Shown here one piece after another: positions 23,258 to 58,459 of a DNA stretch of 64,000 nucleotides. Both the position numbers and the translations under genes were made by a program. The notes beneath the pieces are model-generated. The model did not search any database, had not been told where the DNA came from, and saw nothing but the letters and a program-made list of their open reading frames with translations. This DNA comes from Psychromonas sp. CNPT3 (GTDB taxonomy: Bacteria > Pseudomonadota > Gammaproteobacteria > Enterobacterales > Psychromonadaceae), in contig NC_020802.1 of the NCBI RefSeq assembly GCF_000153405.2, positions 2,499,883 through 2,563,882 of the forward strand, given 5' to 3'. How positions within the stretch are numbered: the stretch's first letter is position 1; each line of letters starts with the position of its first letter.

Positions 23258-23378
23258 TTAACACTTTGATGCCGATAATATCATTAATTTGCGAAAAAAA
23301 TAACTTTCTCACATAAAATTAACATGTTTACGACCTAAAATACTATGCAAACCTTCTAATGTAGCGTAAAGTTTATTT

Positions 23379-23557
23379 AACCCTCGGGTATTCGCTGATC
23401 TTGACAAAGTCTCTGAGCCGATAAGTAATACCCTGGTAACTTGGATTGGATGCTCTTGTGCATGCTCGGCTAGTATCGAGAAGCCTGCGGCAAACACTGG
23501 GATACCACACTTGACCTTCGGGTTCAAGGTCCACGTCAATAACGATGCCCTTGGGTT
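23379..23557 (+). ncRNA. ssrS: 6S RNA
   Basis: About 179 nt that binds RNA polymerase-sigma70 in stationary phase by mimicking an open promoter. The ends pair (AACCC-TCGGGTATTCG with CGATGCCC-TTGGGTT). Landmarks shared with E. coli 6S include CTGAGCCGATA, GCATGCTCGG, GAGAAGCCT and the hairpin TTGACCTTCGGGTTCAAGG. It lies just after zapA as expected. Its usual downstream partner fthC is displaced by about 5 kb. Ends are placed from the closing stem and are approximate. Confidence 0.9.
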
Positions 23558-23771
23558 ACTTTTTAACTTACACCTAATTAATACCTCCCTGTGCGACACT
23601 TCTGTAATAATCTATTGATGTAATTCACTTTTGTTTACATTTTAATCTACTGCTGTAGACTAGCTTTCTAACACTTTAACCGACCTTTCTTAGTAATATG
23701 TGCTTATATGGCACTTTATTTTATATATTCAAAATCTAATGCTTAAAAAATAAAGCACTAAACATGCACTA

Positions 23772-56202: not shown

Positions 56203-56575
56203 ATAATACCTATTTACTTAATTAACGGGCGATTGTACCACTATTCAACAACGCTTAAATGAAAAAAAGATAAATAATAAAAACCAAAACTAACAAATCA
56301 AAATATTTAACATTCACACTTATTTAGTACTTCTTTTATAATTTTAAAATTAAGGGTTAAAATACGTATCAAAATTAATAGCGTAAAAAAGATATTGCCT
56401 CTGCCCCTTATAAAAAAAGAACTACGACACATCAATGTCCCGTTTAACATTAATAGTTCGCCACTTTAAAGAAACACCCACACCAAATAAGAGGTAATTA
56501 TTAGTCAAATACACATCAACAAGGATCCCTTCTTCGATACATCGCAATATAAAAATACTATATAACTAAGCTAAT
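56203..56575. other. Intergenic stretch between hpt and the rrn-distal array
   Basis: About 370 AT-rich bases. No gene is supported. The final bases (AAGCTAATAACG) match the spacer that follows several array units, so the array once extended a little further. Confidence 0.5.
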
Positions 56576-56616
56576 AACGAAAAAAGGCTTTGAAATAGTG
56601 ACGTGTTTATAAAAAA

Positions 56617-56710
56617 GGCACTGACGACAAACTCTCCCTACTATCACATAATATGTATCTGCCTTCTGCAGGATCTTTCTGTTCCATGTTCGAGTAGGTC
56701 ATTGCCAAGC
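56617..56710 (-). repeat. Array unit 1 (distal, truncated)
   Basis: Keeps the GCTTGGCAATGACCTACTC opening (minus strand), the first hairpin with one mismatch (CTGCA/GGCAG) and GATAGTAGGG. It lacks hairpins 2 and 3. Confidence 0.7.
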
Positions 56711-56757
56711 CTTTAACGAAAAAATCTGTTTTATATAGTGATGGGTTTAAAAAAAGA

Positions 56758-56957
56758 GGCGCTTTGGCGACGGTCAGGGTTCGCAGTGCTCACCCGCTCG
56801 TGAAAACTTGCCTGTCGGCAATACCCTCCAGGACACACAGAGCTTAGTCCGATCAAGAAAATTGCCTGCCGGAAAACTCGCCCCTAGAATCACATATTAG
56901 GAAAGCAACTTTGTTGCGCTGTTTATTTCCCATGTGAGAGTGGTCATCTAGCCAAGC
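56758..56957 (-). repeat. Array unit 2 (with internal duplication)
   Basis: 200 bases. Hairpin 1 is GCAAC-aaa-GTTGC and hairpin 3 is GGGT/ACCC. The hairpin-2 region is duplicated and one copy is eroded. Confidence 0.75.
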
Positions 56958-57004
56958 TAATAACGAAAAAACGGTTTGAAAATAGTGAATGGTTTTAAAA
57001 AAGA

Positions 57005-57200
57005 GGCGCTTGGGCGACGGCCAGGGTTCAACGATCTCACCCGCTCGTATACTTGCCTGTCGGCAATACCCTCCAGGATTCGCAGAGCTCACCCGCTCGT
57101 AAACTTGCCTGTCGGCAAACTCGCCCCTAAAATCACATAATATGCTTCTGCCTACGCCGCGCTGTTTATTTCCCATGTGAGAGTGGTCATCTAGCCAAGC
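57005..57200 (-). repeat. Array unit 3 (with internal duplication)
   Basis: 196 bases. It has two copies of the TTGCC-gaca-GGCAA hairpin and of the GAGCGGGTGAG segment. Hairpin 1 is broken, with a left arm unlike any right arm. Confidence 0.75.
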
Positions 57201-57246
57201 TAATAACGAAAAAACGGTTTGAAAATAGTAATAGTTTTAAAAAAGA

Positions 57247-57345
57247 GGCGCTTTGGCGACGGTCGGGAGTCGCAGAGCTCCTCCGCTCGTATACATCGCT
57301 GTCGCGATACTCGCCCTACTCGAGAGTAAGTCATAAATCGTAGGC
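57247..57345 (-). repeat. Array unit 4 (deleted)
   Basis: 99 bases. Hairpin 1 and its flanking stem are deleted (ACTCTCGAGTAGGG joins directly). Hairpin 2 is ATCGC-gaca-GCGAT and hairpin 3 is GGAG/CTCC. Confidence 0.75.
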
Positions 57346-57352
57346 AATAAAA

Positions 57353-57380
57353 AACCCAGTCAGAAAAAACCGACTGGGTT
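57353..57380 (-). terminator. Terminator between units 5 and 4
   Basis: Stem AACCCAGTC/GACTGGGTT with a T run on the minus strand. The same hairpin recurs at 57761 and 57962. Confidence 0.85.
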
Positions 57381-57402
57381 ATTCTTGTCTTTTATAAAGA
57401 GA

Positions 57403-57544
57403 GGCGCTTGGCGACGGTCAGGGCTCGCAGAGCTCACCCGCTCGTATACTTGCCTGTCGGCAAACTCGCCCTACTATCACATGTTATGAAAGCAACTTCG
57501 TTGCGCTGTTTATTTCCCATGTGAGAGTGGTCATCTAGCCAAGC
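57403..57544 (-). repeat. Array unit 5 (full)
   Basis: 142 bases. Hairpin 1 is GCAAC-gaa-GTTGC, hairpin 2 is TTGCC-gaca-GGCAA and hairpin 3 is GGGT/GCCC (one G-U pair). Confidence 0.8.
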
Positions 57545-57556
57545 TAATAACGAAAA

Positions 57557-57586
57557 AATCCCTGTTGACATCAGTCAACAGGGATT
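57557..57586 (-). terminator. Terminator between units 6 and 5
   Basis: Stem AATCCCTGTTGAC with its complement (minus strand), followed by a T run. Its sequence is unrelated to the other array terminators. Confidence 0.85.
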
Positions 57587-57610
57587 ATTCGCAATTCTTT
57601 TATTAATAGA

Positions 57611-57753
57611 GCGCTTGGCGACGGTCGGGAGTCGCAGAGTTCCTCCGCTCGTACACTTGCCTGCCGGCAAACTCGCCCTACTATCACACAATATGTATCT
57701 ACCTTCGGTAGGCTGTTTATTTCCCATGTGAGAGTAAGTCATAAATCGCAGGC
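57611..57753 (-). repeat. Array unit 6 (full)
   Basis: 143 bases. Hairpin 1 is CTACC-gaa-GGTAG, hairpin 2 is TTGCC-ggca-GGCAA and hairpin 3 is GGAG/CTCC. The 5' end is diverged (GCCTGCGATTTATGAC). Confidence 0.8.
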
Positions 57754-57760
57754 AATAAAA

Positions 57761-57788
57761 AACCCAGTCAGAAAAAACCGACTGGGTT
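57761..57788 (-). terminator. Terminator between units 7 and 6
   Basis: Same AACCCAGTC/GACTGGGTT hairpin and T run as at 57353. Confidence 0.85.
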
Positions 57789-57810
57789 ATTCTTGTCTTT
57801 TATAAAAAGA

Positions 57811-57954
57811 GGCGCTTGGCGACGGTCGGGATTCGCAAAGCTCATCCGCTCGTATACATCGCTGTCGCGATACTCGCCCTACTATCACACAATATGCTTC
57901 TGCCTACGGCAGGCTGTTTATGTTCCATGTGAGAGTAAGTCATAAATCACAGGC
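57811..57954 (-). repeat. Array unit 7 (full)
   Basis: 144 bases. Hairpin 1 is CTGCC-gta-GGCAG, hairpin 2 is ATCGC-gaca-GCGAT and hairpin 3 is GGAT/ATCC, each a different compensated version. Confidence 0.8.
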
Positions 57955-57961
57955 AATAAAA

Positions 57962-57989
57962 AACCCAGTCAGAAAAAACCGACTGGGTT
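57962..57989 (-). terminator. Terminator between units 8 and 7
   Basis: Same AACCCAGTC/GACTGGGTT hairpin and T run as at 57353. Confidence 0.85.
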
Positions 57990-58011
57990 ATTCTTGTCTT
58001 TTATAAAAAGA

Positions 58012-58152
58012 GGCGCTTGGCGACGGTCAGGGTTCGCAGTGCTCACCCGCTCGTACACTTGCCTGTCGGCAAACTCGCCCTACTATCACATGTTATGAAA
58101 GCAACTGCGTTGCGTTTTTTATATCCCATGTTCGAGTAGGTCATTGCCAAGC
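58012..58152 (-). repeat. Array unit 8 (full, next to 5S)
   Basis: 141 bases. Hairpin 1 is GCAAC-gca-GTTGC, hairpin 2 is TTGCC-gaca-GGCAA and hairpin 3 is GGGT/ACCC. The 5' end GGCTTGGCAATGACCTACTC resembles the inverted 3' end of 5S. Confidence 0.8.
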
Positions 58153-58160
58153 CTTTAACG

Positions 58161-58196
58161 AAAAAACCCCAGCCCTTCGTAGAAGGACTGGGGTTT
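58161..58196 (-). terminator. Primary terminator after 5S rRNA
   Basis: Stem AACCCCAGTCCTTC with GAAGGGCTGGGGTT (minus strand, one G-U pair) and a T6 tract, 14 bases after the 5S end. Confidence 0.9.
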
Positions 58197-58208
58197 ATCG
58201 TTAATTAG

Positions 58209-58328
58209 GCGCTTGGCGATGACCTACTCTCACATGGGGAGACCCCACACTACCATCGGCGCAACTGCGTTTCACTTCTGAGTTCGGCATGGGATCAGGT
58301 GGTGCCACAGCGCTATTATCGCCAAGCT
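58209..58328 (-). rRNA. rrf: 5S ribosomal RNA
   Basis: 120 nt matching E. coli 5S in register. Landmarks are CCATGCCGAACTCAGAAGTG and CGCCGATGGTAGTGTGGGG. The closing helix is AGCTTGGCGA/TCGCCAAGC. Ends are set by alignment to E. coli from memory. Confidence 0.96.
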
Positions 58329-58459
58329 AAAAATCTTAATTAGAAAAGCTGGATTGTTTCTTAATCTTGCAATTTGTTTCGTAAAATATGTCTTCGCAAA
58401 CGTATTTGATTGATTACAATCATCTCTTGGTTACTCAATACAATACTTTTAGGAATTGT

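Follow-up and report, generated by a model that had tools for sequence, protein, structure and literature searches.

Hairpin cassettes derived from the 5S rRNA 3' end behind the rrn operons of Psychromonas: stem covariation with a substitution pattern differing from that of RNase P RNA

In Escherichia coli, the ribosomal RNA operon rrnB carries tandem intrinsic terminators, T1 and T2, after the 5S gene. Repetitive extragenic palindromes (REP) and bacterial interspersed mosaic elements (BIME), which go with REP-associated tyrosine transposases (RAYT), are dispersed structured repeats. The closest described systems are the 5S remnants with insertions found at the distal rrn ends of Peptococcaceae and Pseudoalteromonas. 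In that paper, the remnants are judged to be pseudogenes, likely not transcribed, and some intact 5S genes are found to carry insertions nearly identical to those of the remnants (Stepanov and Fox 2021, PMC7812874). Herein, a stretch of 64,000 nucleotides from Psychromonas sp. CNPT3 (NC_020802.1, positions 2,499,883 to 2,563,882; referred to as the window) was analyzed. Eight repeated units with three hairpins, called H1, HpA, and HpB, lie on its minus strand at 56576-58157, behind a 5S gene in the direction of transcription. The HpA stem covaries above a phylogenetic null. Repair of DNA hairpins accounts for the pattern of change no less well than selection on a working RNA does. The explanation tentatively favored here, as a leading possibility still short of probable, is that the units are hairpin cassettes from the distal rrn end that are made and repaired at the DNA level, with backup termination as their likeliest use.

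The units resemble the remnants of Stepanov and Fox (2021) in being 5S-derived, in lying behind a normal 5S gene, in being multiple, and in carrying structured insertions. In that paper, a putative terminator stands before each remnant; here, a perfect terminator stem stands before all nine first units of the genome and before fewer of the later ones. Here also, only the 3' end of 5S is present, as an inverted copy pair, and the insertion is a two-hairpin module. Unlike the remnants, which were judged pseudogenes, the window units evolve under clear structural constraint. Psychromonas was not found in the main text of PMC7812874, and the portion of the paper at hand describes neither covariation nor a genus-wide array. 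Identity with the Pseudoalteromonas remnants was considered and rejected: one plasmid remnant (L253) keeps 5S core pieces and has no match to the module model. In literature searches, no publication dealing with these repeats was listed for either Psychromonas or Shewanella. Other taxa are known to have comparable 5S remnants (PMC7812874), but the module, its spread, and its substitution pattern appear to be new.

A full unit is built, from 5' to 3', of the 5' arms of stems P1 and P2, the hairpin H1, the 3' arm of P2, the module, the 3' arm of 5S helix I, and a trailer. The 5' arms of P1 and P2 jointly form a near-exact antisense copy, 25-30 nucleotides long, of the 3' end of the 5S gene (GCTTGGC..ATGACC..ACTCTCACATGGG), and the 3' arm of P2 is a sense copy of the 5S end (CATGTGATAGTAGG). 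The module, GCGAG-HpA-CGAGC-HpB, is inserted between GTAGG and the helix-I arm of the sense 5S copy; it is followed by CCGTCGCCAAGCGCC and then by the helix-I 3' arm and the trailer. HpA has a C-GNNA-G loop, HpB has a GCTCTGC tip, and tandem G.A pairs are usual in both. Behind the 5S trailer, units are often followed by a predicted intrinsic terminator. The parts of the array are given below.

58211..58326, minus strand: 5S rRNA gene, source of the unit arms (Rfam RF00001, 103.5 bits)
58164..58196, minus strand: predicted intrinsic terminator directly after 5S, 15-pair stem
58012..58154, minus strand: unit 1, with antisense 5S arm, H1 (GCAAC/GTTGC), sense 5S arm plus HpA-HpB module, and 5S helix-I 3' arm (module 58013-58084, 89.0 bits)
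57962..57989, minus strand: predicted terminator after unit 1, 11-pair stem
57811..57953, minus strand: unit 2 (module 57812-57883, 85.5 bits)
57761..57788, minus strand: predicted terminator after unit 2, 11-pair stem
57610..57752, minus strand: unit 3 (module 57611-57682, 80.8 bits)
57557..57586, minus strand: predicted terminator after unit 3, 13-pair stem of a different sequence type
57403..57544, minus strand: unit 4 (module 57404-57475, 89.9 bits)
57353..57380, minus strand: predicted terminator after unit 4, 11-pair stem
57249..57345, minus strand: unit 5, short form without H1 (CTTACTCTCGAGTAGG), 5' end approximate (module 57249-57320, 84.7 bits)
57005..57200, minus strand: unit 6, doubled module and broken H1, no perfect terminator stem after it (sequence and model matches)
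56758..56957, minus strand: unit 7, doubled module, no perfect terminator stem after it (sequence and model matches)
56618..56712, minus strand: unit 8, a truncated unit that has lost the module, with approximate limits (copy 56621-56702 of direct repeat family D4; no model match)

Of the eight units in the array, four have the full anatomy, H1 is missing from one, the module is doubled in two, and one is truncated. A covariance model search of the array found seven modules; an eighth match, of 13 bits, is the 5S end. The preliminary description of this DNA had counted eight units with three hairpins, and the count and the hairpins were both found as described. The H1 stems GCAAC/GTTGC, CTGCC/GGCAG, and CTACC/GGTAG, the HpA stems TTGCC/GGCAA and ATCGC/GCGAT with a mostly GACA loop, and the HpB forms GGGT, GGAG, and GGAT are all present. 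The recurring outer stem, which carries a C.T mismatch (ACTcTCACATG / CATGTGAtAGT), is there as well. Its arms are copies of the 5S 3' end, one antisense and one sense, which had gone unrecognized, as had the five predicted terminators described below.

The unit arms are derived from the 3' end of 5S. The 5' part of 5S is missing from the window units, and a search of 56400-58340 with Rfam RF00001 gave only the true 5S matches and no unit match even at E<=10. Units mostly carry the 5S variant of their own host: GAAAGTAGG and ATTGCC in G019, CCGCCAGGC in G113, and CTGCCAGGC in G080, G095, G104, and G272. At three Psychromonas loci (L054, L063, and L106, in G006, G022, and G015), 5S-like stretches that retain core pieces lie upstream of the HpA-HpB module; they contain extra inserts, including a hairpin CCTTGAAC..GTTCAAGG. 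An alternative 5S helix I (GTCTAG..CTAGAC), in place of the usual GCTTGGC/GCCAAGC, was seen in L054 (both arms) and in L079 and L106 (3' arm).

Terminator prediction gave 11 terminator-like sites on both strands, compared with 2.1 expected. Five of them, on the minus strand, sit exactly after 5S and after units 1-4; these are strong, separate 5S and the proximal units from each other, and belong to three sequence types. Several terminators after 5S are also found in E. coli rrnB with T1 and T2; here there are five, separated by 5S-derived cassettes.

Covariation was measured by an R-scape-like test on 130 modules (141 modules minus 11 short-HpB sequences), with columns of more than 30% gaps trimmed. 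The alignment had 71 columns and 907 substitutions and was compared with 60 alignments simulated on the module tree. The four best column pairs of all are those of the HpA stem, with E values of 0, 0.017, 0.017, and 0.18 under the phylogenetic null. Two HpB pairs come seventh and tenth, with E over all pairs of 1.5 and 2.9. Of the 15 proposed pairs, the remaining nine are unremarkable (E 10 or more), and four of the ten top-ranked column pairs are not among the proposed ones.

Pairing was also measured in first modules, selected by their location. Of 49 long-type modules standing first after a 5S end, the eight more than 140 nucleotides away were dropped, which left 41 (39 distinct). Here, 92.1% of the pair cells were paired, compared with 73.3% in shuffled alignments and 27-42% in slid controls, and the covariation score was 0.465 compared with 0.156 +/- 0.015; neither value was reached by any of 500 shuffles. 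Two weaker measures gave smaller differences: pairs changed on both sides, 9 versus 7.1 (reached by 32 of 500 shuffles), and further pair types, 26 versus 22.9 (29 of 500). In HpA, 97% of the pair cells of these first modules (199/205) were kept despite widely differing stems. Twelve different fully Watson-Crick five-pair HpA stems occur in the genus, along with nine different H1 stems; of 65 pattern matches to H1, among which double counting may occur, 55 have a GNA triloop. The co-varying pairs proposed earlier are thus borne out both in the window and across the genus, by the simulated null and by the 500 shuffles. Search model R1, built from 33 of 49 sequences picked for good pairing and diversity, was used for searching only.

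In a selected RNA helix, changes from G-C to G-U are expected to survive far more often than changes from G-C to A-C. Changes from Watson-Crick pairs to G-U and to A-C were counted as rounded parsimony means on trees and compared by Fisher test. The ratio was 51:36 in all modules and 24:1 in RNase P RNA (p 0.0002). Against the same control, the HpA stem gave 10:8 (p 0.002), HpB 26:16 (p 0.0015), and the first modules 15:10 (p 0.005). The control was taken from 21 genomes of the genus with the Rfam structure; an RNAalifold structure gave 25:1. Pair-breaking transversions amounted to about 73 against 51 G-U changes in the modules and to 11 against 24 in RNase P RNA.

These counts bear on the reading of the units as a functional structured RNA. 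Read-through of the terminators would give 5S-like RNAs of about 140 nucleotides, closed by a 5S-type helix (GCTTGGC/GCCAAGC) and released by the 5S maturation enzymes, which could act, for example, on 5S through the antisense 5' arm or as a protein-binding decoy. The covariation over the genus and the sense orientation behind 5S are consistent with such an RNA, and so are the G.A pairs and the GCTCTGC tip, conserved in several genera while the stems flip. The G-U changes, which barely exceed the A-C changes, and the common pair-breaking transversions argue against it, both being unlike RNase P RNA. So does the strong predicted terminator before each proximal unit.

The fold and the loops also point both ways. 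The minimum-energy RNA fold of unit 1 is the full P1-P2-H1-HpA-HpB structure, and that of unit 4 differs around H1 only, as a functional RNA would have it. Unit 2 is no more stable than shuffled sequences, and the antisense strand folds at least equally well: the folding z scores of three units were -3.0, -3.5, and -0.8 on the antisense strand, compared with -2.4, -2.7, and -0.2 on the sense strand. Strand preference by folding energy was set aside as a criterion, with no consistent advantage in the three units folded on both strands. The HpA loops of 103 well-paired hairpins are GNYA in 85 cases, GNRA in eight, and of another kind in ten, which speaks against a functional RNA, where GNRA would be looked for. 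A GNNA loop closed by C-G is reportedly a stable DNA tetraloop motif, as the title of Nakano 2002 has it. Taken together, a functional RNA is judged unlikely, while remaining a serious contender. The earlier interpretation is supported in part: the covariation itself stands, and selection for RNA folding is not established, given that G-U lacks the excess over A-C seen in RNase P RNA and that the sense strand is not more stable in the three units folded on both strands. The other ideas raised with it, a DNA cruciform and a fail-safe terminator or recombination zone, fit better.

Eleven 5S genes are distributed over ten loci of the 3.05-Mb genome; these were taken as rrn loci, and the upstream 23S gene was seen in the window only. 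Arrays lie behind nine of the ten 5S loci, in the sense of transcription; with these arrays and the other genera described below, the repeat is not confined to a single locus. A single-unit DNA search of the genome gave 59 matches, all in clusters behind these nine loci and all in the rrn direction except seven palindromic opposite-strand matches. Model R1 gave 47 matches, and all 42 among the matches listed fall in rrn arrays. The tenth locus (L024, 113342-113641 of the genome) has two 5S genes followed by a tRNA-like sequence, identified by eye, and no array; L069 and L096 are similar. One array (L029) has an outlying piece about 2.8 kb further, at 2678.6-2678.9 kb, with other sequence in between.

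In this genome, terminators and H1 disappear as the distance from 5S grows. The units were ranked by pattern recognition, which covered 33 units in nine arrays, including six of the eight in the window, so that the ranks skip some units; only perfect terminator stems of at least 7 pairs were counted, and mismatched stems were not. Behind 5S, all nine arrays have such a perfect stem, with 11-15 pairs. One follows unit 1 in 5/9 arrays, unit 2 in 4/9, unit 3 in 2/7, unit 4 in 2/5, and later units in 0/3. H1 is intact in 8/9, 6/9, 4/7, and 2/5 at the same ranks, then in 2/3. By length, all nine first units contain one module, and later units contain one to three, often doubled. The paired fraction of the modules drops with distance from 5S (rho -0.42, p 0.003, n=48 modules). 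The alleles of P1, H1, HpA, and HpB are reassorted in many combinations among the 33 units, as expected from recombination among arrays; part of the stem variety within this genome is a few alleles reshuffled among units.

The outward loss of terminators and H1 would suit plain 5S pseudogenes that are neither transcribed nor selected, a status proposed for the remnants of Peptococcaceae and Pseudoalteromonas. The remnants share the position, the terminators before the copies, and the insertions in 5S (PMC7812874). Plain pseudogenes would not explain the HpA pair cells kept in first modules with differing stems, or the persistence of the G.A motifs and the GCTCTGC tip in other genera. Random substitutions on the tree also do not yield the HpA covariation. 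The strict pseudogene reading is already disfavored, and pseudogenes in general are considered quite improbable.

The spread among relatives was determined by DNA and model searches. The DNA search found the repeat in 22 of 24 genomes of the genus and in none of 36 others of the order. At E<=0.01, 23 of the 24 genomes of the genus matched model R1, which covers the inner module; so did 15 of 370 other genomes, and the weakest of these 15 matches may be due to chance. Model R3 was counted in genomes at least 90% complete, at E<=0.001; it matched all 21 genomes of the genus and, outside it, 11 of 373 (three in genus g15, one in g47, two in g25, four in g6, and one in g118). Five further genera of the order thus match the module model, and in four of them the match was read next to 5S. 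A class-wide draw of 370 genomes gave a match in this genome only.

The contexts read were those of G310 (two loci) and G346 in g6, G113 and G080 in g15, G095 in g47, and G272 and G104 in g25 (L274 and L275); the matches in G194 and G400 were left out of this reading. Every context showed 5S, a terminator, an antisense arm or a short stem, the module, and a 5S-like end, and this end equals the 5S of the host, g6 excepted. The contig of G037 begins behind 5S, and the match read in G364 does not adjoin 5S. Shewanella hanedai is among the module carriers; in one of its three contigs (L209), 5S lies about 300 nucleotides upstream of the match, and in the other two the stretch begins there or has no 5S within reach. 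A contig labeled as an Oceanospirillaceae metagenome-assembled genome (L217) contains a 5S end and unit almost identical to those of Shewanella hanedai, possibly by mis-binning. Around a constant GA-GCTCTGC-GA, the HpB stem differs between genera, being GGG/CCC in some and the reverse, CCC/GGG, in others, and in g15 its tandem G.A pairs are replaced by Watson-Crick pairs. Plasmid searches with one g6 unit and one g15 unit gave no match, and no unit was found within 0.8 kb downstream of one 5S locus of Aeromonas caviae.

In several Psychromonas genomes, modules also lie far from rrn, often clustered. The numbers of model matches in the four genomes counted were 66 in G019, 52 in G006, 20 in G022, and the 47 of this genome. 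Among the matches listed, most of those of G019 and some of those of G006 fall away from 5S loci. Dispersed modules were found inside REP-like palindromes (GGGGCGC...CTGCAG) at L154, L156, and L158. At L190 and L191, the closing stems of dispersed modules are perfectly paired and differ in sequence between the two loci.

These locations suggest another alternative: the HpA-HpB module would be a small element, mobile or copied and folding as single-stranded DNA, which entered the 5S repeats and, separately, other stems. Its presence in REP-like palindromes or on unrelated perfect stems, its C-GNNA-G and C-GNA-G loops on one strand, and the one to three modules per unit are in keeping with this. 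The structured repeats resemble REP/BIME in this respect; unlike the REP/BIME-RAYT systems, they show no link to a Y1 transposase, and the copies of this genome among the matches listed lie at rrn ends, which also speaks against mobility. No enzyme was found: G019, the richest of the four genomes in model matches, has no match to the Y1/RAYT-like transposase family PF01797, and this genome has one, below the cut-off. A mobile element driven by RAYT was rejected, with no correlation to copy number. A mobile module of any kind is regarded as improbable, though less so than pseudogenes.

The tentatively favored explanation, DNA-level cassettes from the distal rrn end, would operate as follows. 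New units may arise beside 5S by inverted duplication, through strand or template switching at the palindrome of the 5S end and terminator, and also by unequal recombination. Gene conversion would spread them among the rrn operons, and units would decay as they are pushed outward. Pairing would be held largely at the DNA level, by copying one arm anew from the other and by substituting intact copies for damaged ones; wobble pairs would then not be preferred. The present use, if any, may be backup termination and insulation behind the strong rrn promoters. Template switching can create and maintain hairpins (PMC8794818). There too, both arms of a stem change together with pairing preserved; those hairpins concern RNA genes, and here the hairpins lie in repeats known from sequence alone.

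Several results weigh against this explanation. The termination in it is predicted, and the template switching is proposed. HpA shows little decay by rank (intact in 9/9, 7/9, 6/7, 4/5, and 3/3), and so does HpB (6/9, 6/9, 3/7, 2/5, and 2/3). The distance trend is weak over all modules (rho -0.15, p 0.09, n=122) and absent when the other genomes are pooled (rho 0.03, p 0.82, n=74). Decay with distance was therefore dropped as a general rule; it holds in this genome only, where it affects terminators and H1 more strongly than HpA and HpB. The G-U and A-C counts assume one tree although modules recombine, and they do not differ significantly from those of a 5S control (16:6, p 0.33), a set that includes damaged 5S copies. 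Pair-restoring double changes, about 32 in the modules and 28 in RNase P RNA, do not tell the readings apart, because RNase P RNA has about as many. They are as common as a functional RNA would have them, and simultaneous double changes were dropped as a sign of template switching. Among the 85 GNYA loops, 58 are GACA or GGCA, probably by shared descent. The g6 units mismatch the 5S helix-I end of their host.

The tandem G.A pairs add a further point on the same side. They are kept on the sense strand in 112 and 103 of 130 modules at two HpA positions and in 93 and 118 in HpB, and they recur in other genera. The GCTCTGC tip is likewise kept in four of the five genera read while the flanking stems flip, g6 differing. 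Pure arm-to-arm recopying would give Watson-Crick pairs; therefore, some selection on the folded strand is likely. In a broader formulation, the module would be an undescribed two-hairpin element, read beside 5S in five genera of one order, with tandem G.A pairs and, g6 excepted, a conserved GCTCTGC tip on stems that exchange freely; it would be copied into 5S-end repeats and unrelated stems, selected as a folded strand of RNA or single-stranded DNA, and with a role at rRNA operon ends; this is doubtful as a whole, yet deserves to be kept in view.

A functional RNA is commonly regarded as proven by covariation; here, strong covariation and non-canonical motifs go with a substitution pattern that does not look RNA-like. 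The 20 to 66 copies per genome, in the four genomes counted, let RNA selection and DNA-level hairpin repair be told apart, and the movement of modules between rrn operons could be followed between strains. The known 5S remnants are extended from scattered pseudogenes to a genus-wide system. If transcribed, the units would form a new 5S-like RNA family with a 5' arm antisense to 5S rRNA.

The statement that the hairpins belong to no named RNA family agrees with Rfam, which gives none at the gathering score. The match to MIR4387 (41.6 bits, cut-off 84) reflects only the long palindrome that the 5S end, the terminator, and the unit start form together; ncr1575, anti-hemB, and Qrr score far under their cut-offs, and no family fits even at E<=10. 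Elsewhere in the window, a 6S RNA gene lies at 23377-23560.

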